Position numbers and translations under genes: made by a program. The notes under the pieces were generated by a model. It did not search any database. It saw only the letters and a list, made by a program, of their open reading frames with translations, and was not told where the DNA came from. A DNA stretch of 22,319 nt from Candidatus Methanoperedentaceae archaeon (GTDB lineage: Archaea > Halobacteriota > Methanosarcinia > Methanosarcinales > Methanoperedenaceae): assembly GCA_027371625.1 (NCBI GenBank), contig DAHXMQ010000183.1, forward strand, positions 1 to 22,319, read 5' to 3'. Below are positions 2,035-22,250 of the stretch, in pieces. Within the stretch, counting starts at the first letter, position 1, and the number at the start of each line of letters is the position of its first letter.

Positions 2035-5000
2035 AATAGTTACCGCGGTTATTGTGGTTCCAGAAGGAGCGGAAATGATGTATTTTAAGTATCTGCCGTA
2101 TTCTCCGGAAGCAACCGTATAAAGAAGGTTCTCTCCTACTCCAGCTTGTGCCCAGTTGGACCACGTATTATCATCCATGCTGTATGATGTATAAACAACT
2201 GCTTGGTTGATATTTCCCGACCCCTGTAACTGGACGTAAGTGAACGTTTCATTCATTCCAGCATCAAATACGGCAGATGTAAAATTGCCATAATTGGCTG
2301 GTGTATTTGGTGGGATCTGGTATACTTGCTGAATCATTGACCCACTGCTTGACGAATAATTAGAGTCACCAGCATAAGTTGCTGAGATGGAATTGTTTCC
2401 AGCCCAGAGAGACGACGTTGAATACGTTGCTATACCCGATGACGTAGTACCAGTTCCCAGAGTGGTTGAGCCTTCTTTGAATGTAACGGTTTCGCCGTCA
2501 GGTATTGCGCCGTTCGATGGGGTTACCGTTGCAGTGAAAGTAATTGCATTACCATATGTCGATGGATTTAGTGACGATGATATTGCTGTTGTGGTGCCTG
2601 TTTTAACGGTCTGTGAAAGTGTTCCTGTGCTGCCAGTATAGTTCGTATCGCCGCTGTATGTCGCATTGATAACATGCGTCCCCACAGACAGCGAAGAGAT
2701 TGATGAGCTGGCTGCACTGCCGTTGGTTATATCGACCGGCGAACCAAAAGTTGAGCCGTCTACCACAAATTGCACGGTACCCGTTGCAATTGATGGAGAT
2801 ATTGTTGCCGTGAATGTTACTGACTGACCGGACGCGGATGGATTGAGAGACGAGGAAATTGCTGTAGTGGTGCTTGCCCGGTTCACGGTCTGGTAAAGTG
2901 TTCCTGTGCTTGCCGCATAATTTGAATCGCCGCCGTACACGGCATCAATCGTATGTGATCCCACAGATAGCGAAGAGATTGATGGGCTGGCTGCGCTGCC
3001 TCCGGAAACCGTTACTGGTGACCCGAAGTTCGTTCCATCAATTGTGAATTGTACAGTACCCGTTGCGCTGGATGGCGAGATCGTTGCAGTGAATGTAACC
3101 GACTGACCGGACGTGGATGGATTGAGAGACGAAGTGACTGCCGCCGTGCTGGCAGCCTGATTCACATTCTGGGCTAATGCACTCGACGTGCTTGCAGTGA
3201 AATTAGCGTCTCCGACATATACCGCCGTGATAGAACTGGTTCCCACGCTGAGAGATGATATCGAGAACGTTGCATTGCCAGACGACGTAGTACCGGTTCC
3301 AAGGACGACAGTGCCGTTCTTAAAAGTAACAGTCTCGCCATTTGGTATTGAGCCACCGGACGAGGTTATGTTTGCAGTGAAAGTGACCGTATTACCATAT
3401 GTCGATGGGTTTAGTGATGAATATATGGACGTTGTGGTGTTTGCTCCAACGGTCTGTGAAAGTGTTCCTGTGCTGCCAGTATAGTTCGAATCACCACTAT
3501 ACGTCGCATTGATAACGTGCGTACCTGCGGACAGTGAAGAAGTTGCCGGGCTGACCGCACTTCCATTCGATATTGATACAGGCGATCCAAAATTAGTTCC
3601 ATCAATTGCAAACTGCACCGTGCCTGTTGCATTCGATGGCGAAATTGCTGCGATGAATGTTATGGATTGGTTGATAGAAGATGGGTTGGTAGATGAAGAT
3701 ACTGATGTTGTAGTAGCTGCCTGGTTCACGGTCTGAGTTAATGTGCCTGTAGAGCTGCTGAAGTTAGCGTCTCCGGTATATAAGGCAGTTATAGGATCGT
3801 TTCCAGCTTGGAGAGATGATGTTGAAAAAGTTGCATTGCCCGATGCGGTCATGCCTGTTCCAATCACTGCAGAACCGTTCTTGAAAGTAACCGTCTCGCC
3901 ATCAGGTATTCCTCCTCCGGATGAGGTTACACTTGCAGTGAAGGTAACTGATTGATTGTATGTTGATGGATCAGCACTCGAAGATATTACCGTTGTAGTG
4001 CTCGCTTGGTTAACTATCAGTGATGCGACGCCCGAGCTTGAGTTAAAGTTAGAATCGCCAGGATATGATACGGTGATGGTTTTATTTCCTGCGGAACTTG
4101 ATGAGAGCGAACAACTGCCTACTGCGATTGATGATGAACACTGGTTCGTCCCATCGCTAACTGTAGCAAATCCCGTGGGACTGCCTGATCCCGGGGGATT
4201 TGCGGTCACCGTAAATGATACTGCATACGTCTGTCCCACCGCGGGGGATGAGGGTAAAATGTTGAATATTGTTGTGGTTGTACTCCCTTTGCTTACAATT
4301 TGTGAGAGAGAGCTCGTGCTTGAAGTGTAATTAATGTCGCCGCTATATGTCATATTAACGATGTGGGTGCCAGCGGATAGTGTGGATAGGGCATACGAGA
4401 CGCTACCGCCAGATAGTGCTACTGACCCGTAGTTATAACCATCGATAGAGATTTGCACCGAACCCGTTGCATTGGAAGGTGAAACGGTTGCAGTAAATGT
4501 AACTGACTGTCCGTATACCGACGGGTTGATTGATGAAGATACTGTTGTAGTGGTGCTTGCCTGGTTTACAGTCTGGGCTAATGCACTCGACGTGCTTGCA
4601 GTGAAATTAGCGTCTCCTACATATGAGGCTGTTATGTAATTGTTCCCCGCACCAAGAGACGAAGTCGAGAACGTCGCGTTACCGGATGAGGTAGTGCCCG
4701 TTCCTATCGCCGTCGAGCCGTTTTTGAATGTGACACTCTCACCGTCAGGAATAGCACCAGCCAGCGAGGTTATGTTTGCCGTAAAAGTAACTGACTGTCC
4801 GTATACCGACGGGTTGATTGTTGAAGATACTGCTGTGGTCGTACTCGCTTTGTTCACAATTTGTGAAAGTGTTCCTGTGCTGCCGGTATAATTCGAATCA
4901 CCACTATACGTCGCATTGATAACGTGCGTGCCTGCGGATAGTGAAGAAGTTGCTGGGCTGACTGCACTGCCGTTCGAGATTGATACTTGCGATCCAAAAT

Positions 5001-7272
5001 TTATCCCATCAATTGCAAATTGCACCGTGCCAGTTGCTGCAGATGATGAAGTTGTTGCAGTGAAAACCACTGGTTGCCCGTATGTTGACGCATTTAATGA
5101 CGAAGATATGCTTACACTCACAGTAAGTGGAAGGTAATCGGTATTATTCGTGCCAAGGGCATAAGCAAACTCGCATATTCCATCATTATCGGAATCTGCA
5201 CAGGTCTGGCTGAAGCCTGTGCCGTTTTCATATCCCCAATAATTGCCGCCAATATAATGACCACCGATTATGTCCGTGCCTGACATTCTTGTTGCGTTCC
5301 ATATGTTATTTTTTGTGTCATTGATATTGATACCGTTGGTATTATTGAAATAGTTGTTATAAAATATATTGGGAGAAAACGATGCAATTAAACCGATTCC
5401 GTATCCAATACCGGGACCCAAGGTGCCAGCGGATCCACTGCAGTAGCCGTTGCTGCCTCCCAGACCCTCATTGCCAAAGCTGTTGTTCGATACATAATTT
5501 CCAACTACGATATTGCTTCCGGAGGATTTTAAATAAATCCCATAGGCATTTCCGCCCAAACCGCCCATTGCGCCATAGCCTCCATTGCCACCGTACATTC
5601 CATTACCACCCATGCCGCCGTAGTTATTCCAAATGGTATTATTTGTTATGGTATTACTGAGAGACTGGTATAGATAAATACCATAAAAATTACCCCCGGT
5701 GCCACCTATTCCTGCCGAACCACTACCACAACCGCCTGCGCCCCAGCCACCGGAACCGATACCTCCGATACCTCCACTGTTATTCTGAATAAAGTTCGCT
5801 GTAATATTATTACTGGAACCGTATATGGATATGCCATAACTAAAGTTCCCATTACCCCCGTTCCCTGAGTTATAAGTGCTTTGGTTGTAGCCTGCACTAC
5901 CAATAATATTCGAAACAGTGTTATTAGTTATGATATTGTTGTTGGAAGTGATGTTTATACCAGTATCGTTTACAGCAGCAATGCTGTTGATTATACTGAA
6001 CCCACTCATCGTTGTATCGTTGGCAGTGATTGAAATAACATTACTGCTCCCCTTTCCATCTACAACAGGCATGCCTATGCCAACAATACTGACATTTGGA
6101 TATACAGTAGCAAACGGACCATACGATGATCCATTGTTATATACATCAACCGTATCGCCTGTATATGCATACGGTAACGCCTGATTTATATCACTAAAAT
6201 TGCAGCCGCTGGAGCAGACCGTTAATGTCGTTGATCGATTATAAAAGTTTTCATCTCCCCACGTCGCCCACGTTGGTTCGGGCGAGACGTAAGGACGAAC
6301 ACGCACTAAATCAATAGTATCAGAACTGCCACTATACCCGTATCCGAACATGATATCATCGACACCATCAGACCAGGGAGTACTCACCGTCACCAGAGCA
6401 CCGTTGTTTATAGAGTACTTTATCTGATTCCCACCGAGGTATATGATTTTTATACTACTCCATGCGTTAGGCGTCCTCGCTATACCCGTGTCTACATAAT
6501 TATTGTTGTCAAAGTATTCCCATGTATTGCCTGTGTATCCTACGGCAAGCACAAACCGAAGAGCATTGGCAGTAGAATTTCCAAATCCCGTCCAAGCCTC
6601 ACACCGCGCGCTGCACCCATTATCATAAAAATAATAATCAAGCTCATACGCATTGCCGACTGTTCCCCATGCGCGTGAGGTAATGCCTCCTGTATGTAGC
6701 GAATAATTACTGTAATACGTGGGACTTTCTAAAATAGTTCCAGTACCTGAAACCCATTTTGCTGTATCAAGAACACCACTGTCAAAATCGTCATAAAATA
6801 GAAATGTGTTGTTCCCGCCCAGCGAATTACTCAAAGAATAATTAAGACCACCTGCATATAGTTGTACAGGGCCGTTTCCCGTTACATTTGTCCACAATGT
6901 CCACGATGAGCTGTCTGAAGTGTTGCTCTCAACCCAGAATGGTAGTGTTGTAACGTTATTTATAGTCATATTCCAATTAATCGTTAGAATACTTCCATTT
7001 GCAGCGGATGTAAAGTTACAGTAATTATTACAGTAAACGTCTGTTGCACTATTTGTCCCCGTACCTTTGTGAATTGTGAATGGTATGTCATATGGTCTTG
7101 TACCATTCGGAATGTTGTTATTGAACATTACTGGATAAGGAGCACCCCACAACATTGCTGCCTGCGCAGTTCCTGTAAGCATCACAACTATAAGCACAAA
7201 ACTTACCAGAATCAATGTTGAAGAAAATAATCTATTCCTTTTCGTTGCTGCCAGACCATATTTTAATTTCAT
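1993..7272 (-). CDS. giant secreted surface protein: DUF2341, NosD-type beta-helix, ten Ig-like repeats
   Basis: A 1,759-residue protein. Order: Sec signal peptide (hydrophobic core about 16-33, likely cleavage after TAQA at 35-38); a DUF2341-like domain (about 45-160); a lectin-like stretch opening with DFDSG..D..KW (about 160-340); a right-handed parallel beta-helix with NosD-like turns (about 349-705) containing glycine-rich inserts and ending in a D.DNDGIC..Y...DYLPL motif; ten tandem Ig-like Big_3-type repeats of about 94 residues (716-1654); and a C-terminal beta domain (1655-1759) resembling discoidin-like carbohydrate modules. Asn-X-Ser/Thr sites are frequent. I see no C-terminal membrane helix or PGF-type sorting motif. 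The start follows GAGGTG about 10 bases upstream. Probable role: adhesion or cell-surface layer; the ligand is unknown. Confidence 0.85.
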   Translation of the reverse strand: MKLKYGLAATKRNRLFSSTLILVSFVLIVVMLTGTAQAAMLWGAPYPVMFNNNIPNGTRPYDIPFTIHKGTGTNSATDVYCNNYCNFTSAANGSILTINWNMTINNVTTLPFWVESNTSDSSSWTLWTNVTGNGPVQLYAGGLNYSLSNSLGGNNTFLFYDDFDSGVLDTAKWVSGTGTILESPTYYSNYSLHTGGITSRAWGTVGNAYELDYYFYDNGCSARCEAWTGFGNSTANALRFVLAVGYTGNTWEYFDNNNYVDTGIARTPNAWSSIKIIYLGGNQIKYSINNGALVTVSTPWSDGVDDIMFGYGYSGSSDTIDLVRVRPYVSPEPTWATWGDENFYNRSTTLTVCSSGCNFSDINQALPYAYTGDTVDVYNNGSSYGPFATVYPNVSIVGIGMPVVDGKGSSNVISITANDTTMSGFSIINSIAAVNDTGINITSNNNIITNNTVSNIIGSAGYNQSTYNSGNGGNGNFSYGISIYGSSNNITANFIQNNSGGIGGIGSGGWGAGGCGSGSAGIGGTGGNFYGIYLYQSLSNTITNNTIWNNYGGMGGNGMYGGNGGYGAMGGLGGNAYGIYLKSSGSNIVVGNYVSNNSFGNEGLGGSNGYCSGSAGTLGPGIGYGIGLIASFSPNIFYNNYFNNTNGININDTKNNIWNATRMSGTDIIGGHYIGGNYWGYENGTGFSQTCADSDNDGICEFAYALGTNNTDYLPLTVSVSISSSLNASTYGQPVVFTATTSSSAATGTVQFAIDGINFGSQVSISNGSAVSPATSSLSAGTHVINATYSGDSNYTGSTGTLSQIVNKASTTTAVSSTINPSVYGQSVTFTANITSLAGAIPDGESVTFKNGSTAIGTGTTSSGNATFSTSSLGAGNNYITASYVGDANFTASTSSALAQTVNQASTTTTVSSSINPSVYGQSVTFTATVSPSNATGSVQISIDGYNYGSVALSGGSVSYALSTLSAGTHIVNMTYSGDINYTSSTSSLSQIVSKGSTTTTIFNILPSSPAVGQTYAVSFTVTANPPGSGSPTGFATVSDGTNQCSSSIAVGSCSLSSSSAGNKTITVSYPGDSNFNSSSGVASLIVNQASTTTVISSSADPSTYNQSVTFTASVTSSGGGIPDGETVTFKNGSAVIGTGMTASGNATFSTSSLQAGNDPITALYTGDANFSSSTGTLTQTVNQAATTTSVSSSTNPSSINQSITFIAAISPSNATGTVQFAIDGTNFGSPVSISNGSAVSPATSSLSAGTHVINATYSGDSNYTGSTGTLSQTVGANTTTSIYSSLNPSTYGNTVTFTANITSSGGSIPNGETVTFKNGTVVLGTGTTSSGNATFSISSLSVGTSSITAVYVGDANFTASTSSALAQNVNQAASTAAVTSSLNPSTSGQSVTFTATISPSSATGTVQFTIDGTNFGSPVTVSGGSAASPSISSLSVGSHTIDAVYGGDSNYAASTGTLYQTVNRASTTTAISSSLNPSASGQSVTFTATISPSIATGTVQFVVDGSTFGSPVDITNGSAASSSISSLSVGTHVINATYSGDTNYTGSTGTLSQTVKTGTTTAISSSLNPSTYGNAITFTATVTPSNGAIPDGETVTFKEGSTTLGTGTTSSGIATYSTSSLWAGNNSISATYAGDSNYSSSSGSMIQQVYQIPPNTPANYGNFTSAVFDAGMNETFTYVQLQGSGNINQAVVYTSYSMDDNTWSNWAQAGVGENLLYTVASGEYGRYLKYIISAPSGTTITAVTIGYITSPDGVLTIG
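2311..5125 (-). repeat. ten tandem Ig-like domain repeats (about 280 bp each)
   Basis: Each unit starts near TTT-ISSSLNPS-YGQSVTFTA and ends near GDSNYTGSTGTLSQTV. Two subtypes alternate. Type A carries TGTVQFAIDG. Type B carries IPDGETVTFKNG. From the N-terminus the order is A, B, A, a divergent unit with NQCSSSIAVGSC, B, A, B, A, A, B. Some DNA stretches are near-identical between units five repeats apart. Confidence 0.85.
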
Positions 7273-7342
7273 CTCTCATTCACCTCATGTAATAAGCTTG
7301 CTCCTTAACGTAATAATGCAACCACAAAACAATTGTTATCAT

Positions 7343-7357
7343 TGTACATATACTTTT
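7343..7357 (-). promoter_or_regulatory. candidate promoter of the 1,759-aa surface gene
   Basis: The minus strand reads AAAAGTATATGTACAATG in the 137-bp gap between the two giant genes. It would give a leader of about 45-50 bases carrying the GAGGTG ribosome site at 7281-7288. This suggests separate transcription from the upstream pair. Confidence 0.35.
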
Positions 7358-7409
7358 TCATGATGTGTGCCATGATTTCCGTTGAACCCACGTTTCTGTC
7401 ACACTGGCA

Positions 7410-10400
7410 TCACGATACCGGGATTCCAAGAGTGTTGGAAAGGTAGCTTTTTATAGCATTTTCATTTGTTCCTTCGATATTACCCGTGTGTATGCCTCCG
7501 AGATTATCGGTTATCGTCACAGTATTGAACGTATCGCCTCCCGTGCGCCATGTGTAAGATGGACCGCTAACTGATGCCGACACAGCTTCTCCATAATGGT
7601 CCAGAGCATATCCGCCGATATAAAAGCATGCCAAGCTACATGAATATAGTTCATTATAGAACCCGTTGAGATTGTAACTATATTCATCGCCATAATTAGA
7701 GAAAATGTCTCCGACGGCGTTTATTGGTGGATATGCCGTCGCCACTGTACTGTTCGTACTGGTGGCACCCCATTCATCTGTTGCTGTTACTGTAACCGTA
7801 TACGTGCCTGGCACATATTGGTTCCATGCGAGGTTCCAGCCCAGGTTATATTGAAACATCCATTGCGGCGGGTCTTCTTCATCAGGTCTATAAACCGCGT
7901 ACCCGAAAGTGTATTGATTTGTCGAGGTTGAAATTCCATTCATGCCCCAGTCATACTCAACCTGGAAGTTTTTATCGCTCGGATCGTCGGGATTCACGAT
8001 AGTGGCATAAATTGTTGATGGTTCTATGGAATAGGAGAAACTACGCTCTCCATTGCAATCGTAACCGCAGTAGAATTTTGGATTCGCACCGATGAGATTT
8101 ATGCCCTCGAAATCAACGCTGTTGATGGTTATCTGTGGCGGTCGGTGCTTGTATATTTTCACTGCTTCGGTACTGCTTGATGAGAGTCCCCAGGTATCTT
8201 TTGCAGTTACGGTTACGTAAAAGACGTCGTAATACTTTCCATTCGAATCCTGATAATCCCAGTGATCCGGAGCATAAATGTGGGTAGTGCTGCCATTCAT
8301 CGACCATACGCTCTGTGTTCCATCGCCGAAATCGTACATATACCATATCTGGTCTCCCTGCGGATCGCCGTGAGGATTGTCAGGGTCGTAAGAGATTGAA
8401 TTGAAAACTACCGGAATTCTTTCCAGATACGCACCGGAAGGCAGGAACGGCACGCTCTTGACGTTGTATATGGACGTGATTATTGGCGCCCTCGGCGGAT
8501 TATCGTAGATGAAGACAGAATCGTTGTACGTTGCAACGGCATTGTATGGATCCTGAACCTGTGCTTCGAAATCAACAGACTGGTTCAATATGTAATTATA
8601 CGTGCCTTGCCGTGCAGTATATCTATGAGTAACGTTGTTCGCCTGGGGATTTGTTCTCGGAATTAAAATCGTCTGGTTCCACACAAGCTCACTGCTCGTG
8701 ATAAACGTCTGGTTTAAGGGGATGCTTCCTATCCAGCCGGAATCATATCCGTCGCCCCAGATGTACCTGTAATGCAGATAATCTAAATACTGCATATCCT
8801 CAACATCTGGGTCGGTTGCATTTAAGGTCATGTTATTAATGTCGCCAATATGAACTGGATTGTGCTGTCCTGCCCAAGGAGCCAGAGCCTGTCCCAGCGG
8901 ATTCGATGACGGTGTTTCCCCGGCGAGATTAAGGTATTGGAGAGCGGTTGCGCCGTACGCATTAGTCAGGTTTTTAGTATCTGCAACCGACAAGCCATAA
9001 ATTTCAGGCGGATCATTGTAAACGGTAACGGTCTGACTCGATGTACCCTGCTGCGGATTATAGACTATGTCGCCAGGGACGTCATCGATTGATCCCATTC
9101 CGCTGTCCGTAACCGTAAGACCTATGGTATGATTTCCGACTGTCGGCATCCATATGATTCCTTCTGGCTGCGTGACATTATCGCCTTCGTCGTGGCTGGC
9201 GCGCTGTTCCATGTAAACCTCCGGTGGGATAGGAATCCCGTCGAGAGACCAGTCCAGCGTCAGTGGATAAGAGAACGGTTTGCCGTAATACCTGTTCCAG
9301 TCCCATATATTAGGTTCAATCCTGACCCAGCCGTGCTGGGTGAGATTCCCTGCAAACCACGACAAGTTTTCATCGTTCGGATCGATTAACACACTGATGT
9401 TCGGGTAAGGAGGATATTCAGGTGGCGGCAGGTCTTTGAACCATCCTATCATATTCTCGCCAATGTCCTGCGGCGGTCTTTCCTGGTAATCCCAGCGCAC
9501 GTGTGCTACCCACGTCAGGTTATATTGCAACAATTGTTTTAAATTCCATGAATAAGCCGGCAGTCCCGCAACCATACCGCTGTTGTCTTGAACTGCTGCG
9601 CTTATCGTCTGGTTATCCTTGACTTTCCACCATCCTTCTCCCCAGTCGGGATAATAATGAATTGAATAGTTTTTCGAAGCCCCGTTGTCGGAGCTTATCT
9701 TATAGAAATCATAATAATCTACGGTATTGTTGCTGGTAAAATTGACGACAGTGTTGTTATTCGTATAAACGCCCTGGCTCATGGGATAAAACCATTCTGC
9801 CGTGAAATTGTCCGGATACCGATTTATTAAAAATTCCTTTGTGGAATAATCCCCGTCCGCGATATACGCTCTCACTTCCACGGCAAACGTCCCGTTCCTG
9901 TACAGATTTATTGTAGAACTCCATGTTACAAGCGTACTGTTCACTGCCGATATTTCTGCATCATTGACAACTACGCCGTCGCTATTATAAACCCGCACGC
10001 TTACTTCTGTTATGTTGGTTGCGTTTGTTTGCGCAGTTCCTGCCGCAACAATGCTGGCATCTGAAGTTCTCGTAACTCTTCTTGCAGGATTTATCATGGT
10101 TATCACGGGAACGTCGTCGTACTTGATATACAGGCTATCCTCCCCGGTCAATCCCGCAGAAGAATAAACGCGTGCGTCTATTATGTAAAGACCAGGCACG
10201 AGATTCACTGTCTGGCTCCACAGCGCCGCGCCCGTCGTATTGCTTAACGAAGATGCAGTACATGCGGATCCGCTTGGCGGGAAAAACCATGAAAAGATAC
10301 CAGATGAATTATCGGGCGCACAGGTGCTGTTTGAAAGATATAGAACGTAACTTGCGTATGGGGAAGGCGCCTCGCCGGGGACAAGCGACATTAAATCAAC

Positions 10401-12929
10401 TGTGATCTTAGCAATGCCGTCGGCGCTGTATGCAGTGCCGTTGATGGTTAAATTCTGCATTCCCACGTGATCCCCGTTGGCAAGATTTGTTATCTGGATG
10501 GTGGGCGCAGTCGATTGCTTGATTATGGTTATGCTCTCTGAAACTGTGTTATTCGCCTGGTCCACGGCGGTAATCACAAAATTATTATTGCCTTCATTCA
10601 AAGATGCGACATAATACCAGTCAACTAACGTCGAGCCGAATATTCCTGTAACAAGATTTCCATTTACATATACCGCGCTTATGTTGTTATTATCCCAAGC
10701 AACGCCGCCGATCGTTGCCGATGCAGACTGGACCACTGAATCGTTTTCCGGGTATAATATCTCGAGCTGGGGCGATGTATAATAAGCATATATATCCAGT
10801 GTAGCATTTGCCACGTTGCCTGCCGCATCTCTTGCCTGGATATTGATACTGTTTTTTCCTTCGTATAACTGCACAGTCGCATTCCAGTTCAGGTTTGCGG
10901 GTCTCCACCAGTTCGTGCCCGCAAGGGTAACGTTCTGGTAATCTACTGTAAGAGAATCCATTTCATAATCGTCAAAAACCGTGCCGGTTATTGTATAGTT
11001 CCGTGCATTTGTCACGTATCCTTCCTGAGGATTGGTTATTGTTATTATGGGAGGCGTGGTATCCTTATACGTGGCAACGTCCTGCTCAGCTAAATTCCCG
11101 GCAAAATCCTGTGCATATAATTTGACTGTCGTGGTATCCGTGAAGTTGTATATCTCTACGGTATAAGAAATTGACCCACTGCCGCCACTGGTGGGAACGG
11201 CTGGAATGCCGGTTACGTTTCCGCCATTATCCACTTCAGCCCATGCAATCGGATTGCCGGGAAGCTGTGTATCATCAGTGGTATTAAATGATATTACGTC
11301 CGTGTTCCCTCTAACGTATTTATCCGCGTGGGTAATGGTTATATTTGGCGGCACATTATCGTATATCACAGTCGTGTTCTTACTCCAGCCGCTGTATTTC
11401 CCCGACCTTGCGTAGGCAGAAATCCTTGCAATATAAGCCGTAGCCGAAGTCGGAGAATAAACCGTAAAAGACGTACTGAAATTATAACCACCGGATGTAT
11501 AGATATTAAAAGGACCTGGATTGGATAAACTGCCGCTGTACATTAAACTTACGTTCTGCCCCGAAGCCATATCGGATACCGGCTCGGCGTATATCTCGTA
11601 ATCGATATGGTCAACCCCGGAACCGGGAACATCAGATGCACTGAAGCCGAAGGTAATGCTCGACTGTGTGGCGTTGACGAAACCGAATCCCTCCGTAATG
11701 TTTTCATTAAATGCTTGAGTCATTATACTCGGCTGGCTGACTGCTGGATTCCAGATATCGTACATTGCAGTATTGCTCCATGCAGTCCATGCACTCGTTC
11801 TTCCAGCATTATCTACTGCATACGCTCTTGCAACGTAATACCTGCCAGGAGTCATGCTCGCGAACGTATAAGTGCCGGAAGACCCAATCCAATCAGAGAA
11901 TACAATGCTTCCGTTTAACAGATCTTCTATTTGCATGTACACGTTGCTTATGCCAGAATCAGGGTCTGAGGGCGATGTAGTGTACGTTACGCTGCCGGTG
12001 GTCGTCCACATTGGGTTTTGCGGTGTGCTGATAGTGGGGGTGTCAAGGTCTATTCTCGCGTATAGCGTAGTATAGCCGCTGGGATTTCCTGCATTATCCA
12101 CTGCCCTGAAATCGAAAGTATAGCTTCCCCCGGATGAAAGAGTAATGGCATAAGGCGAAGATACCTGCTGCCACGCCCCACTATTAGTTCTTTCCTGGTA
12201 ATAAGCCACGCCGCTTTCCGTATCAGTAGAAGGAGCCCAGACGAAATTGAGCGACCCCGTCCAGCTCCACGGCGGATTCGATGAAGTGGAAGCAACCCCG
12301 TTCGTATCAGTTACAACCGGCGTTGTTGGAGGTACGGTATCTACCCCAAACGACCGTGACTGAATACTGGACGTCGCGCCGGCATTATTATACGCCTGAA
12401 CGTAGAATGTATGTGTGCCGTCAGGTATGGAATTCACGACTGTACTGGTGCTCGTCGTCCACGTTTTAGCGCCGCTATCCAGCCAATAATAATAACCGGA
12501 TATTCCGCTTGTGCTGTATGCGCTCCATCCAAATCCAGCCGAGTTCTGGTTAATCCATACGGTGGGACCGCTTGTAATGGAAAGACTCGGCGTTCCAGTA
12601 TCTATTCCAAAACTGCTTGAAACTACTGCGCTGAGATTTCCGGAGTTATCTTTTTCTTCGAGATAGAAAGTATGCCAGCCGTCCGATACAGATAGAGTTG
12701 CACTGGTGCCTGTCGTAAAAAATTGCCCGCCGCCGTCCAGCCAATAATAATATCCTGCAATTCCAGTACCGTCGCTAGTTCCGTTCCATGTGAAAGCAAC
12801 GGTGTTTGTATTGAGCCAGCCGGAAGGACCGCTCGTAATGGATACGCTGCCTGCTTTTGCTGCGCCTGCAAATGCAAGTATCAGCAGCGATGCCAGAATT
12901 ACCTGATGAATGCGAATTTTTTTAATCAT
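7410..12929 (-). CDS. giant secreted surface protein with Ig-like and PKD-like modules
   Basis: A 1,839-residue protein with a Sec signal peptide (cleavage likely after AAKA, residue 26). The N-terminal part has about ten beta-sandwich repeats. The first two carry GYYYWLDxG...DG.HTFYxx..N.G, reminiscent of OmpL47/Ig-like repeats, and later ones carry DNAGN or DAAGN turns and TPPxI.I..P linkers typical of bacterial Ig-like modules. The second half has PKD-like units, clearest at YDFGDGTQSVW followed by VTVTAKDTWG, and again at VTVTATDEWG. Cysteine pairs occur near the C-terminus (YCGYDCNG and SCSLAC). No membrane anchor or sorting signal is visible at the C-terminus. The start is firm: the stop TGA of the preceding gene forms part of its TGAGGT ribosome site, so the two are translationally coupled. 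Probable role is a surface adhesin or scaffold. Confidence 0.85.
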   Translation of the reverse strand: MIKKIRIHQVILASLLILAFAGAAKAGSVSITSGPSGWLNTNTVAFTWNGTSDGTGIAGYYYWLDGGGQFFTTGTSATLSVSDGWHTFYLEEKDNSGNLSAVVSSSFGIDTGTPSLSITSGPTVWINQNSAGFGWSAYSTSGISGYYYWLDSGAKTWTTSTSTVVNSIPDGTHTFYVQAYNNAGATSSIQSRSFGVDTVPPTTPVVTDTNGVASTSSNPPWSWTGSLNFVWAPSTDTESGVAYYQERTNSGAWQQVSSPYAITLSSGGSYTFDFRAVDNAGNPSGYTTLYARIDLDTPTISTPQNPMWTTTGSVTYTTSPSDPDSGISNVYMQIEDLLNGSIVFSDWIGSSGTYTFASMTPGRYYVARAYAVDNAGRTSAWTAWSNTAMYDIWNPAVSQPSIMTQAFNENITEGFGFVNATQSSITFGFSASDVPGSGVDHIDYEIYAEPVSDMASGQNVSLMYSGSLSNPGPFNIYTSGGYNFSTSFTVYSPTSATAYIARISAYARSGKYSGWSKNTTVIYDNVPPNITITHADKYVRGNTDVISFNTTDDTQLPGNPIAWAEVDNGGNVTGIPAVPTSGGSGSISYTVEIYNFTDTTTVKLYAQDFAGNLAEQDVATYKDTTPPIITITNPQEGYVTNARNYTITGTVFDDYEMDSLTVDYQNVTLAGTNWWRPANLNWNATVQLYEGKNSINIQARDAAGNVANATLDIYAYYTSPQLEILYPENDSVVQSASATIGGVAWDNNNISAVYVNGNLVTGIFGSTLVDWYYVASLNEGNNNFVITAVDQANNTVSESITIIKQSTAPTIQITNLANGDHVGMQNLTINGTAYSADGIAKITVDLMSLVPGEAPSPYASYVLYLSNSTCAPDNSSGIFSWFFPPSGSACTASSLSNTTGAALWSQTVNLVPGLYIIDARVYSSAGLTGEDSLYIKYDDVPVITMINPARRVTRTSDASIVAAGTAQTNATNITEVSVRVYNSDGVVVNDAEISAVNSTLVTWSSTINLYRNGTFAVEVRAYIADGDYSTKEFLINRYPDNFTAEWFYPMSQGVYTNNNTVVNFTSNNTVDYYDFYKISSDNGASKNYSIHYYPDWGEGWWKVKDNQTISAAVQDNSGMVAGLPAYSWNLKQLLQYNLTWVAHVRWDYQERPPQDIGENMIGWFKDLPPPEYPPYPNISVLIDPNDENLSWFAGNLTQHGWVRIEPNIWDWNRYYGKPFSYPLTLDWSLDGIPIPPEVYMEQRASHDEGDNVTQPEGIIWMPTVGNHTIGLTVTDSGMGSIDDVPGDIVYNPQQGTSSQTVTVYNDPPEIYGLSVADTKNLTNAYGATALQYLNLAGETPSSNPLGQALAPWAGQHNPVHIGDINNMTLNATDPDVEDMQYLDYLHYRYIWGDGYDSGWIGSIPLNQTFITSSELVWNQTILIPRTNPQANNVTHRYTARQGTYNYILNQSVDFEAQVQDPYNAVATYNDSVFIYDNPPRAPIITSIYNVKSVPFLPSGAYLERIPVVFNSISYDPDNPHGDPQGDQIWYMYDFGDGTQSVWSMNGSTTHIYAPDHWDYQDSNGKYYDVFYVTVTAKDTWGLSSSSTEAVKIYKHRPPQITINSVDFEGINLIGANPKFYCGYDCNGERSFSYSIEPSTIYATIVNPDDPSDKNFQVEYDWGMNGISTSTNQYTFGYAVYRPDEEDPPQWMFQYNLGWNLAWNQYVPGTYTVTVTATDEWGATSTNSTVATAYPPINAVGDIFSNYGDEYSYNLNGFYNELYSCSLACFYIGGYALDHYGEAVSASVSGPSYTWRTGGDTFNTVTITDNLGGIHTGNIEGTNENAIKSYLSNTLGIPVS

Positions 12930-12935
12930 TTTACC

Positions 12936-14744
12936 TCAGGTACTGCTGCTGGTGTTGAGAGCTTTATCGTATCCACCGACTACCTGCACGTTCGAAGTGC
13001 CGTTTAGACTCCATTCTATGATCTCCTGTACGTTGCCGTTTATGTCCGTAAAATTCCCATAACTCGAACCGCCCCATTCAGGCGGCGAGAATGTGTTGTT
13101 GGCATAATTCCACGTATGCTGAACTATTCTTTTTGATATTTCATTGCCTTCGTTCTGCAAATCAGCCGGCATCTGGTTCCACGGATACCTTTCACTTGCT
13201 TTATGCCAGCCGTAAAAAACTATGCTGTCGTGATCCCAGCCGGTTGAATCGTTATACCCAACATCGCCTGTGGGGAACGCACCGACTTCAAGCCCGTTGC
13301 CGGGACTATACCAGTCGCCTGAATCGTGCGTGCTGTTTAAATAATCCGCAGCTATCTCCCATCCACCTGAGAACGGATTATCTATGCCGCTCATGTTTAT
13401 CCAGTCCTCTACGCTGCGGTTCCATACCTCCCTTGCTGCAACCACGAGCTGCTCTATGTTGTTCGGCAGACCCATGCTGTAGTTATACTCTGTATCGCTT
13501 TCATTCCCCCACGGCATTCCTATTACGTATTGTCCTGAAATAAAGTCCCCTTTTACCGCCTGTATCCTGTCGGGATAGAACATCGTTGTGTGATTCTGCA
13601 TCAGGTCAAACGCCTCTGACGTATAGATACCAACAGTAGTGTTGCCCTGCCCAGTCCAGTCGCCAGCCAGAGGCACATAGGCGCTGCCGCCAGGACCGAA
13701 CTGGAAAGTTACGTCCGCATTTCCTGCGCTGTTGCTGTTTTTCAGGTAGAATGTACCTGTGCTTTTCTGATAAACGCCAATAGTATCGGTCCCATCACCA
13801 TTCCAATCTCCCGTTACCGGCACGAAGTCGTTTCCACCCGGACCGAATTGCACTGTAATGTCTGCTGCGCCGCCAGTATTGCTGTCTTTCAGGTAGAATG
13901 TGCCTGTGCTTTTCTGATAAACGCCAATAGTATCGGTCCCATCGCCATTCCAATCTCCCGTTAGAGGCAAATAGTCGTTTCCACCCGGTCCGAATTGCAC
14001 TGTAATGTCTGCTGCGCCGCCAGTATTGCTGTCTTTCAGGTAGAATGTGCCTGTGCTTTTCTGATAAACGCCAATAGTATCGGTCCCACCGCCATTCCAA
14101 TCTCCCGTTACCGGCACGAAGTCGTTTCCACCCGGACCGAATTGCACTGTAATGTCTGATGTGCCGCCAGTATTGCTGTTCTTCAGGTAGAATGTGCCGG
14201 TATTCGGGTCATAAACGCCAATCGTAGTTACATGCTGCCAAGTCCGATCGCCAACTATCGGCACGTCTCCCGGCACGCCGTAATTAACGATAACGTCTGC
14301 GTTTCCTGCACTGTCGTTGTTCTTCAGATAAAACGTGCTTGGGGCATACTTTACAATCATCAGGTTTCCTGACGAAACGTACATTTTATTATTCTGACTG
14401 CTGAGATTCCGGTCGTAATCCGAAAAAAGAGCATAGCCGTATGTTACTTCGGAATCCAGTTCATTCTCATATTCGTTGAGAATCTGCTCTTTCGTAATAT
14501 TCCATGGATTCTGGAATGCGTGCCTGCTCACAACCGTTTCAGCCGCGGGCACCGCAATCGTTCTTAAATATCTCGGTTCATCCACACTGCCTGACGCCTG
14601 TGCACCCATTGCCTGGAGCATGTCTTTGCGCTGCGCTACGTTAAGCCCGTGATAATCCCTGAACATCTCTCCTTCCATAACAGTAAGCAGGTATATTCCC
14701 GCAAGTATTACAATCGCTATTGCTGCGGCTGATGTACGCTGCAT
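12936..14744 (-). CDS. membrane-anchored surface protein with FG-GAP/VCBS-like repeats
   Basis: A 602-residue protein. A pilin-like hydrophobic N-terminal helix (about residues 5-23) is followed by EGEMFRDYHG. Residues about 136-378 are five repeats of 47-49 residues with the calcium-loop-like core GDWNGDGTDTIGVY and the blade GTFYLKDSNTGG. Such repeats form beta-propeller blades in integrin alpha chains and many secreted proteins. The last 220 residues are rich in Trp, Tyr, Asn and Gly, with no family I recognise. The protein should sit outside the cell, tethered by its first helix in the membrane or packed into a pilus. It lacks a ribosome site; a TATA-like CTATAAGT (minus, 14,768-14,779) lies about 30 bases before the ATG, so it is probably leaderless. 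It heads an operon with the 1,839-aa protein. Confidence 0.8.
   Translation of the reverse strand: MQRTSAAAIAIVILAGIYLLTVMEGEMFRDYHGLNVAQRKDMLQAMGAQASGSVDEPRYLRTIAVPAAETVVSRHAFQNPWNITKEQILNEYENELDSEVTYGYALFSDYDRNLSSQNNKMYVSSGNLMIVKYAPSTFYLKNNDSAGNADVIVNYGVPGDVPIVGDRTWQHVTTIGVYDPNTGTFYLKNSNTGGTSDITVQFGPGGNDFVPVTGDWNGGGTDTIGVYQKSTGTFYLKDSNTGGAADITVQFGPGGNDYLPLTGDWNGDGTDTIGVYQKSTGTFYLKDSNTGGAADITVQFGPGGNDFVPVTGDWNGDGTDTIGVYQKSTGTFYLKNSNSAGNADVTFQFGPGGSAYVPLAGDWTGQGNTTVGIYTSEAFDLMQNHTTMFYPDRIQAVKGDFISGQYVIGMPWGNESDTEYNYSMGLPNNIEQLVVAAREVWNRSVEDWINMSGIDNPFSGGWEIAADYLNSTHDSGDWYSPGNGLEVGAFPTGDVGYNDSTGWDHDSIVFYGWHKASERYPWNQMPADLQNEGNEISKRIVQHTWNYANNTFSPPEWGGSSYGNFTDINGNVQEIIEWSLNGTSNVQVVGGYDKALNTSSST
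13611..14339 (-). repeat. tandem 147-bp coding repeat (five copies)
   Basis: Copies begin at 14339 (141 bp), 14198, 14051, 13904 and 13757, the last four each 147 bp. The third and fourth copies are almost identical in DNA, differing mainly where YLPL replaces FVPV. Each encodes one FG-GAP/VCBS-like blade. Confidence 0.9.
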
Positions 14745-16394: not shown

Positions 16395-17102
16395 ATGAAA
16401 AATGTTCAAACAAAGAAGCAGAGACTCTTTTTTGCTTTAAACAGAATTGAAGCAGAAATTGAAAAAAACCCGGTTCAGTCTTGTGCCGATTTTGTGTTTG
16501 TAATAGAAAATATAAAAGGAGGTGAAATTGTGAGGTGGATCGCGGGACGAGATGCCTATACAAAAAATGAACTTTATGCTGCGTTCCCAGGATTTTCTCC
16601 CCGTTTCCTCAGAGATTTATATAGGCAGGTGAATAAAATCGAAGGGCGAACACCGATCTTGATCGGCGGAAAAAGAAATGGCACGAAAGCCCCCGTGGTA
16701 TACGCCCGCTATCCGCAGTTCTTTACGGAGTGGGCGCGGGAGCGGCGCATTAGTCCTTTTCTTTTAGTACAGGCAATCAAATATCTCAAAGAAAATAATT
16801 TGTGTGGGAATATAACGCTTGAAGAGGAAGAAAAATTTGGAAAGTGGCTTGCTCAAAATTCGCTCGGCAGTTGCCGATTTATTACTTATGCGCAAGACCC
16901 GTGCATCCCGGAAAACATAAAAATCAACAACGGCATCACCAGAAACGGGCACAAATTTCACCCCAAATTTCGAACCGGAATGTGGCGACATTATCTGCTA
17001 TATGCTCTCACCGCGCGGCGCACGCTTCCCGCACTCCCGTTTCAGGTCAATGCTACGATTATCGATTTGATTGAAAAAACGAGACGCACGAACAGTTCGT
17101 GA
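16395..17102 (+). CDS. unrecognised protein with a possible winged-helix region
   Basis: A 235-residue soluble, basic protein with no signal peptide or membrane helix. Residues about 55-83 (YTKNELYAAF..FSPRFLRDLYRQVNKI) look like a helix-turn-helix, and residues 86-104 (TPILIGGKRNGTKAPVVYAR) like a beta wing, so DNA binding is plausible but unproven. Two cysteines (C160, C170) flank ITYAQDP. The start follows GGAGGAGG about 9 bases upstream and is firm. It interrupts a run of pilin-like genes and has its own promoter. The DNA before and after it carries duplicated terminator/promoter segments, so it may have been inserted here. It could be a local regulator of the surface genes. Confidence 0.6.
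   Translation: MKNVQTKKQRLFFALNRIEAEIEKNPVQSCADFVFVIENIKGGEIVRWIAGRDAYTKNELYAAFPGFSPRFLRDLYRQVNKIEGRTPILIGGKRNGTKAPVVYARYPQFFTEWARERRISPFLLVQAIKYLKENNLCGNITLEEEEKFGKWLAQNSLGSCRFITYAQDPCIPENIKINNGITRNGHKFHPKFRTGMWRHYLLYALTARRTLPALPFQVNATIIDLIEKTRRTNSS
17087..17101 (+). terminator. hairpin at the end of the unrecognised gene
   Basis: CACGAA pairs with TTCGTG around a 3-base loop and covers the final codons up to the stop. A weaker stem with a TAAA loop (about 17,111-17,130) follows, then a T-rich stretch about 90 bases further on. Confidence 0.3.
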
Positions 17103-18380: not shown

Positions 18381-19880
18381 ATGACGGAAAAAAACAAGCA
18401 TAACGGAAAACGAATACCGGACAGCAGTCACGGCACGTTATCTCTGATAATTGTAGTGGTTTTGCTTTTAACCGCACTAACGCTTGATGCAGTGCGGGCG
18501 CAGGCGCAGGAAGAAATTACTGCGCCGATTGATTCAAGTACGGTTCGTTCAACGGATGCTCATTTCAGAGCTGAAATTAATAATCCGTTTGATGATGCTG
18601 AAATGGAAATTTACATTCATTATTATACCGATAGCTATCCTGAACAGTTTTTTTATGTGAATGATTTTGTTATCAAAGATGAGTATATAAAAAGCGGCGA
18701 AGTTAAAACAACTGTGACTGTCCCGCAGGCAGCAATAAAAAAAGGAAAGAACTCAGTTGATGTCATATTCTATGAACCTGGTTTTGCAGATACCTTTACG
18801 GTTTATCCTGACTCAAAAGTTACTCTCAGGAAAATAACTCCATCCCTTTCACTGTCTCAGATAACAATCGAGCCAAAACCCATCGCAAACGAATCGGTAC
18901 AGATAAAATCGGCGCTATCAAATAGTGGAAAAGGCGCTGCGAGTAATATTACTGTAATATTGTTATCGGGAGAAAAAAAAGTGGATGAAGAAAAAATTAC
19001 AGGACTCAACCCGGGACAGTCGCAGCCCGTAATTTTTAACTGGACTGCTCCAGCAGGAATCTATGTACTGAAACTCGACATTTCAGCTTCTGGCGGATAT
19101 GCCGTGGCTCAGAACGTAACGGTTGAGGTTGTGAAAGAAAATACAGCAATGCTGTCTCAGGCAAACATACATCAATGGTCGGGTAGGGATGATGGTACAA
19201 AGAGTGAAAAAGTGTTGTATTTCTTGATATTTACCATAGTGGTTGCAGCTATATTTTTTCTGGTAGCGCGTAGAATGGAAAAGACTACAGCCCCTATCAA
19301 AAATACCGGTGGAGCCGAAAGGAAAAAAGAAGGAGATGTAAACCGGCAGATAGGAACCGAATTTGACGACGAAAAAGAAGCTTTACTGAGCCGAAAAGGA
19401 GCAGGAAACTCATCTGGGATGAATAAAAAAAGGAAGTTGAACAGAAAACCGCCAATCAGCAGAATAGTAGTAGATGGCAGCAATGTTGCAAGAGCAGATT
19501 TAAAAGACGGCCAAGGATCTGCGGAACAATTGATAAACGCGTATACTTCTTTACAGAGAGATTATGATTTTGATGAAATAATAATTATAATTGGGTCAGG
19601 ACTGAGATGGTATACGCCTGATTTTGAAAAACTTAACTATTTTATTGATTCTAAAGTCGTTCGAGAAGCCCCTGCTGGTGAAGATGATGATTTTTTCATC
19701 ATTCAATTTGCTTTAGATAATGACATGCTCATCCTGACGAACGATAGATTCGTAGATTGGAAAGCGAGATATCCTGAGTTAGAGGTGCAAATTGAAATGC
19801 GACGTGTTGCGTTTATGATAAAACCGGATGGATCATTAAGCTTAGGCAAGTTTCCCGATTACAAGAAGGAAAGATACTGA
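18381..19880 (+). CDS. membrane-tethered Zc3h12a/NYN-type ribonuclease with extracellular CARDB-like domain
   Basis: A 499-residue protein. A basic N-terminus and a hydrophobic segment (about 20-35, ending RAQA) form a signal peptide or signal anchor. Residues about 45-150 are a beta-rich domain. Residues about 155-250 have the CARDB pattern (IEPKPIANESVQIKSALSNSGKG then ILLSGEKKVDEEKI and GQSQPVIFNWTAP). A single membrane helix (about 278-296) is followed by basic RRMEK, placing the rest inside the cell. A charged linker leads to the catalytic domain (about 359-490): RIVVDGSNVA with D365, EDDDFFIIQFAL with D435-D437, and ILTNDRFVDW with N454/D455. These are the acidic motifs of the Zc3h12a/Regnase RNase within the PIN-like fold, which cleaves RNA with divalent metal. 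Topology implies outside binding linked to cytoplasmic RNA cleavage. It is monocistronic, and the start has no strong ribosome site. Confidence 0.8.
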   Translation: MTEKNKHNGKRIPDSSHGTLSLIIVVVLLLTALTLDAVRAQAQEEITAPIDSSTVRSTDAHFRAEINNPFDDAEMEIYIHYYTDSYPEQFFYVNDFVIKDEYIKSGEVKTTVTVPQAAIKKGKNSVDVIFYEPGFADTFTVYPDSKVTLRKITPSLSLSQITIEPKPIANESVQIKSALSNSGKGAASNITVILLSGEKKVDEEKITGLNPGQSQPVIFNWTAPAGIYVLKLDISASGGYAVAQNVTVEVVKENTAMLSQANIHQWSGRDDGTKSEKVLYFLIFTIVVAAIFFLVARRMEKTTAPIKNTGGAERKKEGDVNRQIGTEFDDEKEALLSRKGAGNSSGMNKKRKLNRKPPISRIVVDGSNVARADLKDGQGSAEQLINAYTSLQRDYDFDEIIIIIGSGLRWYTPDFEKLNYFIDSKVVREAPAGEDDDFFIIQFALDNDMLILTNDRFVDWKARYPELEVQIEMRRVAFMIKPDGSLSLGKFPDYKKERY

Positions 19881-20130: not shown

Positions 20131-20195
20131 TCCTAATCTATCAATTGCTCTTGTCCCTCACGGAACAAGCCCCCGGTTTCAACCGGGGGTGATTG
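20131..20195 (+). mobile_element. IS200/IS605-type right end (TnpB omega-RNA 3' part), copy A
   Basis: Two abutting hairpins: CTTGTCCC-TCAC-GGAACAAG (20,150-20,169, one C/A mismatch) and CCCCCGG-TTTCAA-CCGGGGG (20,170-20,189), then TGATTG. TCCTAATC and TTGC lie in front. The same architecture occurs inverted at 22,185-22,250. A stem with a TTCA-type loop closed by TGATTG is characteristic of IS1341-type right ends. No intact transposase gene accompanies this copy. Confidence 0.6.
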
Positions 20196-21425: not shown

Positions 21426-21770
21426 TGAAAGCATTGTGACTACGGAATCAATGGATAGAGAAAGCCTCGCCGATTAGGAAAAACTCGGGCTAATCCTTGC
21501 GACTTCAGCCGTGAGGGGACGTCACGTAGTGGTATATCTCTCCCCTGTTAATTCCTTTTCTTTTCCCAATTTTGACTGCACCCTCGGCGCTCTCCCCAGC
21601 TAAAGCCAGTGGGAGTTTTTTTACCACTTGACCCCGACGCTATAAATTCGTGCCTGCAGGGAGTTTCGCCTCCACTGGATTGTTTTTTTCTTTTATTCGG
21701 GCTTTTTTTTATCATATTCACAATACTGCTGTCCGACGGTTCACCCATGTGATAGTACGGGGGTTCAAAA
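21426..21770. other. gene-free stretch carrying transposon right-end-like hairpins
   Basis: On the plus strand GATTAGG...CTAATCC (21,472-21,496) is followed by CTTGCGAC-TTCA-GCCGTGAG (21,496-21,515) and GGGGACGTCAC, a pattern very like IS1341-type right ends. On the minus strand CTCCCACTGGC-TTTA-GCTGGGGAG (about 21,588-21,613) is a degenerate stem with the same loop style. Just before it on that strand, NNPVEAKLPAGTNL then a stop (about 21,638-21,683) could be an eroded TnpB tail. ATTCGGGCTTTTTTTT (21,696-21,711) is a T-run like those at 16,301 and 17,187. A 98-codon frame here looks like a shadow. Confidence 0.4.
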
Positions 21771-21842: not shown

Positions 21843-22223
21843 ATGAAAGTTGTGTGTTTATCGGATCATATCACCCAGCATCTTAATGCAAAAGAAGAGG
21901 AGAGAGAGAAAAAATACGACGCGGCATGGAAAATATATGAAACTAAAATACGTGAGAGACAAAAAAAAATCAATGATAAAAGAGCCGTGCTATCGGATGC
22001 ATGGAGAAAGAAAAAAATCATAAACATTGTGATAAATGCTTTTAAATGGTCTTTGGCAGTACTATCTACTAAACCAAGCGTGCCCATAAAAACAAGTGGC
22101 AAAGACGAAGACGATGTTATATGGGAGAGTGGGCTGATGGGAGAACAACTGGTAGCAGAGTATCTTAAAACAAATCTCAAAGGTCAATCACTCCTTCCTG
22201 AAAGGAAGGAGCATGTCCCGTGA
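21843..22223 (+). pseudogene. NERD-domain gene truncated by a transposon end
   Basis: The frame encodes 126 residues. Residues 1-65 are highly charged and helical (KEEEREKKYDAAW...RERQKKIND), likely a coiled coil. Residues 66-80 are a short hydrophobic region. From residue 94 comes WESGLMGEQLVAEYLKTNL, the opening motif (GxxGE..VA..L) of the NERD nuclease-related domain, whose catalytic part should follow. It is cut off after G114: CAATCA at 22,185 is the first sequence shared with the transposon right end, and the last 12 residues and stop codon (in a GTGA loop) are element-encoded. The product therefore lacks the nuclease core and is probably inactive. The promoter and ribosome site are intact. 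Confidence 0.6.
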
Positions 22224-22250
22224 GGGACATGGGCAACTGGTTGATTAGGA
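22185..22250 (-). mobile_element. IS200/IS605-type right end (TnpB omega-RNA 3' part), copy B
   Basis: Read on the minus strand: TCCTAATC, then CATGTCCC-TCAC-GGGACATG (22,231-22,212), then CTCCTTCC-TTTCA-GGAAGGAG (22,211-22,191), then TGATTG. Both stems are perfect 8-bp pairs. It matches copy A in order, loops and flanks while the stem bases differ in paired fashion. The element body would extend rightward past the window end. Confidence 0.65.

Follow-up and report, generated by a model that had tools for sequence, protein, structure and literature searches.

A putative membrane-tethered Regnase-type ribonuclease with a receptor-like outer half in a Methanoperedenaceae archaeon

The stretch of DNA considered here (the window) comprises 22,319 nucleotides of a Candidatus Methanoperedentaceae archaeon (GenBank assembly GCA_027371625.1, contig DAHXMQ010000183.1), and its plus-strand open reading frame (ORF) at 18381-19880 encodes a protein, P0001, in which a folded ectodomain, a transmembrane (TM) helix and a ribonuclease (RNase) domain of the PIN/NYN type appear to be joined. 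We find, as a new point, that the two halves of this protein have separate relatives. Judged from its sequence, P0001 is very probably a membrane-tethered RNase with the enzyme inside the cell, a prediction that we consider well supported, and it would give a known RNase family a domain architecture that is new, rare, and real as far as one contig shows. The initial annotation of this DNA had described a fusion of ectodomain, single membrane helix and Zc3h12a/NYN RNase, and this layout holds: the gene is a single uninterrupted frame of 499 codons with Pfam domains in both halves. The ATG is the first start codon downstream of a stop, and this start call is supported by a metagenomic relative, P0002, that begins almost identically at nearly the same place.

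The C-terminal domain matches RNase_Zc3h12a (PF11977) over residues 361-485 (E 6e-9, 36.2 bits against a curated cut-off of 23), and its structural model adopts the PIN/NYN fold and matches the structures of ZC3H12B and ZC3H12C, Regnase-1 and KHNYN, so the PIN/NYN-like fold expected for this region was borne out. The tetra-aspartate active site is complete, with D365, D436, D437 and D455 aligning with D195, D279, D280 and D298 of ZC3H12B. Of the acidic motifs named earlier, D365 and D455 are indeed intact, but the acidic pair is D436/D437 rather than D435-437, position 435 being serine in four close relatives of the domain (P0003-P0006, see below). The domain is a predicted metal-dependent RNase. 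With ZC3H12B (6sjd), ZC3H12C (7ndk) and MCPIP1/Regnase-1 (3v33, 5h9v) it shares the PF11977-type domain, the PIN fold and the four aspartates; unlike that family, P0001 has an ectodomain and a membrane helix, and no CCCH zinc finger follows its PIN domain (the protein has no cysteine at all), which places it outside Regnase/MCPIP (ZC3H12A-D) proper. Membership in PRORP (PF16953) was rejected, with no match in P0001 and scores below the cut-off in its relatives. NCBIfam gave a best E of only 0.73, and the PHROGs and PADLOC searches of P0001 returned no family at E up to 0.01.

Several known enzymes resemble this domain. In the available part of one report, the D141N form of MCPIP1 is an inactive mutant (PMC6805641), and the available part of another describes KHNYN as a Mn2+-dependent single-stranded RNase (PMC12709174). 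The NYN/ex-PIN nuclease of KHNYN (8wzc, 9s2d) has the same fold and tetra-aspartate site as P0001; the KH and CUE-like parts of KHNYN are absent from the Pfam matches of P0001, which differs further in its membrane tether. A prokaryotic NYN enzyme, like P0001, is the CRISPR-associated ribonuclease of Bacteroides fragilis, for which the abstract gives Mn2+-dependent, sequence-nonspecific cleavage of single-stranded RNA and suggests a role in crRNA trimming (PMC11346440). Its setting is immune, as a partner of CRISPR, and, unlike for P0001, no ectodomain is mentioned in that abstract.

The outer part of P0001 consists of two domains. A CARDB match (PF07705) covers residues 154-231 (E 9e-9, 35.9 bits against a curated cut-off of 22.7), so the proposed CARDB-type ectodomain is present (about residues 155-252), but it does not stand alone: a jelly roll (about residues 43-153) precedes it, structurally most like one in BcsB and of a fold met in BcsB and carbohydrate-binding modules (CBMs). 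No Pfam CBM profile matched P0001; a relative described below (L047) has a weak CBM-like match under the cut-off (E 0.0065). P0001 has two hydrophobic segments, at residues 20-38 (mean Kyte-Doolittle 2.65) and 278-296 (2.96), with an AxA-type signal-peptidase-like site, read by eye, after A42. Lysine and arginine against aspartate and glutamate number 3 against 5 on the outer side of the second helix (240-276) and 17 against 9 on the inner side (297-360), and this basic bias after the helix favours an inside location for residues 297-499, including the RNase. Four of the five N-glycosylation sequons lie within the outer part, and an inverted topology with the RNase outside was rejected, as both charge bias and sequons oppose it. 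The cytoplasmic placement put forward in the initial annotation is thus likely, with the topology read from hydropathy and charge (plus the sequons) rather than from a dedicated topology program.

Relatives were sought among 5.77 billion proteins, of which only the 7996 candidates sharing most words with the query were scored for the whole protein and for the outer half. The whole of P0001 recovered itself and four others, while the outer half with its helix recovered, besides itself, only P0002, a metagenomic protein of 387 residues with 66% identity over 318 aligned positions (BLASTP; 69% in a MAFFT alignment). P0002 shares the signal segment, jelly roll, CARDB domain, TM helix and basic tail, a combination that we call the chassis, but the alignment stops about 20 residues beyond the membrane helix, and where P0001 has its RNase P0002 has a J-like domain (residues 321-387), which scores below the cut-off for Pfam DnaJ (22.2 bits against 27.8) and has no HPD motif. 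The relatives of the RNase half are the metagenomic proteins P0003-P0006 (59-74% identity), of which only P0006 was new from the search with profile A3, the profile having already contained P0003-P0005; all four are without a membrane helix, and their N-terminal region, alpha-helical by eye, differs from that of P0001.

Genome searches gave the same division. The chassis was found in one of 34 genomes of the family, its own, and the RNase half in two of 237 genomes of the class, namely its own and G087, a member of the same order (47% identity), where this RNase type lies at the C-terminus of a 954-residue protein with another N-terminal region, again alpha-helical by eye, no TM helix and asparagine at the position of D436. 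Profiles A1 and A6, used for wider relatives of the chassis, matched 35 and 34 of the 237 class genomes; apart from those in its own genome, G034 (L047) and G162 (L051), these matches are weak and mostly to the CARDB part, and L047 is itself a row of profile A6. L047 (a 361-codon frame, 23% identical) and L051 (435 codons), from members of the same order, run from a signal segment through beta domains and a TM helix to a short basic tail, with no enzyme, and three CARDB-like frames (L043-L045, about 410 codons) likewise end in a TM helix and short tail. By eye, no nuclease was seen on a chassis-like relative among the frames read, which were only some of the A1 and A6 matches. Since L047 and L051 share the layout but not the enzyme, the novelty seems to lie in the RNase, on a chassis that resembles a common design of surface proteins. 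As to how the exchange came about, linker residues 315-336 of P0001 align with the last helix of the P0002 J-like domain (score 34, reached by 68 of 2000 shuffles), while the linker and the regions upstream of the cassette in P0003-P0006 align at chance level (599-1571 of 2000 shuffles). With five comparisons made, no more than a hint emerges that most of a J-like domain was replaced by the RNase.

The expectation that a membrane-bound Regnase-like RNase would be unusual agrees with the wider survey. PF11977 was found in 5 of 237 class genomes and, when 392 genomes were drawn from the phylum, in 15 (the P0001 genome counted in both), both lower bounds because the Methanocaldococcus jannaschii control was not recovered in either search, although it was in a third PF11977 search. 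None of the 16 other PF11977 proteins that these searches gave in the phylum has a predicted membrane helix (a 19-residue Kyte-Doolittle stretch above 1.7), their best such stretch being 1.35 against 2.96 in P0001; the N-termini of three of the 16 are uncertain because the frames are broken or short. The same fusion was not found elsewhere in the protein and genome searches made and has been seen once. Scans of genome contigs with two short peptide patterns each, which can miss relatives, yielded no named relatives, and none of the literature matches listed (titles and beginnings of abstracts) concerned a membrane-spanning Zc3h12a/NYN protein. In the available part of PMC11915815, an archaeal Zc3h12a-like orthogroup apparently carries 'Other' and '0' in the signal and membrane columns. 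In two other genomes, G079 (twice) and G008 (L002, L003, L005), a Zc3h12a RNase with a C-terminal extension belongs to a recurrent three-gene set, whose partners by eye are a zinc ribbon and rhodanese protein and an NAD-dependent epimerase-like protein.

How P0001 might work is a matter of weighing. We give about even odds to the reading that we prefer, in which domain shuffling would have produced a bitopic protein from a jelly-roll and CARDB ectodomain, of the type used in archaeal surface proteins of this order, followed by a helix and basic tail onto which a Regnase/NYN-type cassette, non-membrane in its other known relatives, would have been grafted. The metal-dependent RNase would be kept at the inner membrane face; the ectodomain may bind a surface polymer, a glycan or a partner protein and so cluster the receptor-like chassis, and clustering would bring PIN domains together and raise RNA cleavage beside the membrane. 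The simplest relay would be clustering, since one helix followed by a long basic linker would hardly transmit a subtle change of conformation and since PIN domains of Regnase have been reported to act as dimers. That the outer domain controls the enzyme at all, as the initial annotation proposed and as is suggested by the layout and by the different cytoplasmic domains found on one kind of chassis, we hold at even odds or slightly below. A stronger form, which we regard as doubtful, would make P0001 a one-component archaeal receptor ribonuclease in which a glycan- or adhesin-binding ectodomain clusters the PIN/NYN domains and thereby converts contact at the surface directly into RNA cleavage, with IRE1-like wiring evolved independently and an exchangeable output (RNase in P0001, J-like domain in P0002). 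The likeness to IRE1 lies in a sensor domain placed across the membrane from an RNase in one chain; it is one of working only, and no relation is claimed. IRE1 differs from P0001 in possessing a kinase and in the fold of its RNase. Similar in outline are bivalve immune receptors, which in the available part of PMC8195603 also join an ectodomain and TM helix to a cytoplasmic module with swappable outputs, HEPN RNases among them, but these are eukaryotic, use DED/TRADD-N adaptors and have a different RNase family.

Two observations favour other readings: the fusion rests on one contig of a draft genome (429 contigs, 68.75% complete), and a like chassis has no more than a short tail in other surface proteins and ends in a J-like domain in P0002, as would suit a general anchor. 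The second of these is in keeping with a constitutive RNase at the membrane, where ectodomain and helix would only place the enzyme near surface-protein messages under translation or near incoming foreign nucleic acid, with no gating by a ligand. Bacteria are well known to have RNases tethered to the membrane that lack an ectodomain (RNase Y, RNase E), and such a plain anchor ranks close behind control by the outer domain; all the same we think it rather unlikely, as an anchor alone needs no folded ectodomain of about 210 residues and the jelly-roll fold of domain 1 is often, though not always, ligand-binding. The first observation, together with the single occurrence and the separate relatives of the halves, is what would also be seen if two unrelated genes had been joined by the assembly, as a chimera, or by a recent accident that left a fusion with no function. 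We consider this very improbable, because the frame is open across the junction, GC content at third codon positions (GC3) is alike in both halves, the active site is intact, no repeat is listed inside the linker (19269-19460), and a neighbouring gene ties the contig to its bin.

A conflict or defence effector, with a cassette taken from anti-mobile-element systems and acting in surface-triggered membrane suicide or RNA clearing, we regard as improbable, and for the abortive-infection-type defence suggested earlier the link is only an indirect one, through the relative in G087. That protein, the only whole-genome relative of the cassette found in the 237 class genomes, sits in a defence island (L009, G087:C1:96000-112000), where positions 2165-14564 hold in order an MkoA-like SF1 helicase (E 6e-114), the 954-residue protein, a 292-residue protein, a ClpB-type AAA ATPase (PDC-M37B, E 2e-33) and a radical-SAM protein, with JetA and JetB of Wadjet after them. 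The sporadic occurrence of the P0001 chassis can be counted on the same side. On the other side P0001 matches no PADLOC model, those of its neighbours that match any family are genes of pilin-like, Ig-like and zinc-ribbon type, and it has no obvious operon partner; no recognised defence gene was seen adjoining it, although the neighbours were not run against PADLOC. As observations on G087 itself, the 292-residue protein looks by eye like a coiled coil, and helicase, NYN protein, AAA ATPase and radical-SAM protein may together form a system not yet described.

If the outer domain does control the nuclease, P0001 would offer a one-protein archaeal route from surface contact to RNA decay that dispenses with a kinase, a cyclic nucleotide and a transcription factor, and the different cytoplasmic domain of P0002 makes the idea of a swappable output testable. 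Should the chassis serve as an anchor and nothing more, a Regnase-type RNase held at the membrane would still be unusual, none having been seen among the 16 other PF11977 proteins found in the phylum. The parts of the gene are collected in Table 1.

Table 1. Parts of the P0001 gene, in positions of the window.
Feature	Position	Strand	Basis
Whole gene: 499-aa bitopic membrane protein, predicted ectodomain-TM-cytoplasmic PIN/NYN RNase	18381..19880	+	ORF, Pfam, hydropathy
N-terminal hydrophobic segment, residues 20-38, signal peptide or anchor	18438..18494	+	hydropathy; conserved in P0002
Outer domain 1, residues about 43-153, jelly roll	18507..18839	+	best single-domain structural match in BcsB
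Outer domain 2, residues about 154-252, CARDB beta-sandwich	18840..19136	+	Pfam PF07705 at 154-231; structure model
Transmembrane helix, residues 278-296	19212..19268	+	hydropathy 2.96; helix 274-301 in model
Basic linker, predicted cytoplasmic, residues 297-360, contains chassis/RNase-cassette junction	19269..19460	+	
PIN/NYN RNase domain, residues 361-485	19461..19835	+	
Predicted catalytic D365 = ZC3H12B D195	19473..19475	+	
Predicted catalytic D436-D437 = ZC3H12B D279-D280	19686..19691	+	
Predicted catalytic D455 = ZC3H12B D298	19743..19745	+	

The gene is isolated, with 461 bp to the previous plus-strand gene and a convergent gene next. Upstream lie small proteins that read as pilin-like, one with a weak PilA-type match. 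Large surface proteins are encoded there on the minus strand, one with Big_3_5 in 10 stretches and another with Glucodextran_B. The adjoining block of pilin-like and adhesin genes noted in the initial annotation was thus recovered as pilin-like and Ig-like surface genes, whose proposed role as suppliers of the ligand is conjectural. The surroundings fit a surface-structure locus with no pointer to defence, PADLOC having been applied to P0001 and not to its neighbours. One of the surface proteins, of 602 residues (12936-14744, minus strand) and built of near-identical repeats, has homologues in three other genomes of the genus, three further matches in its own genome and 15 partial ones in G019; because of the genus homologues and the own-genome matches, the contig fits its bin. 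All three own-genome copies and 8 of the 15 in G019 contain an internal stop, as if this repeat family were expanding and decaying.

GC3 of the P0001 gene is 34.6, against 44.5-54.3 in five upstream plus-strand genes, but this says little on foreign origin because two downstream plus-strand genes are equally low (34.3 and 35.4). A search of the genome for McrA found none, which at 68.75% completeness decides nothing; from the layout of the family, the organism may be a Methanoperedens. A phage or plasmid origin was rejected, the RNase domain having no tblastn match in plasmids or phages and none in PHROGs; scans of viral contigs were empty. An upstream ORF of 235 residues (16395-17102, plus strand) matched nothing in Pfam, NCBIfam or PHROGs, and the remaining 33 genomes of the family gave no homologue of it at E up to 1e-5. 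No Rfam match and no tRNA were found at the locus. The stretch 21450-21545, where Rfam likewise gave nothing, is hairpin-rich by eye and may resemble part of an IS605/TnpB element, either its right end or its guide RNA. A 43-nt inverted repeat (20131-20173 and 22208-22250) is 81% complementary and occurs once more, on contig C222. Each of its two stretches in the window folds better than most shuffles, and the one at 22208-22250 ends a 126-residue ORF (21843-22223), possibly a gene that has been interrupted.
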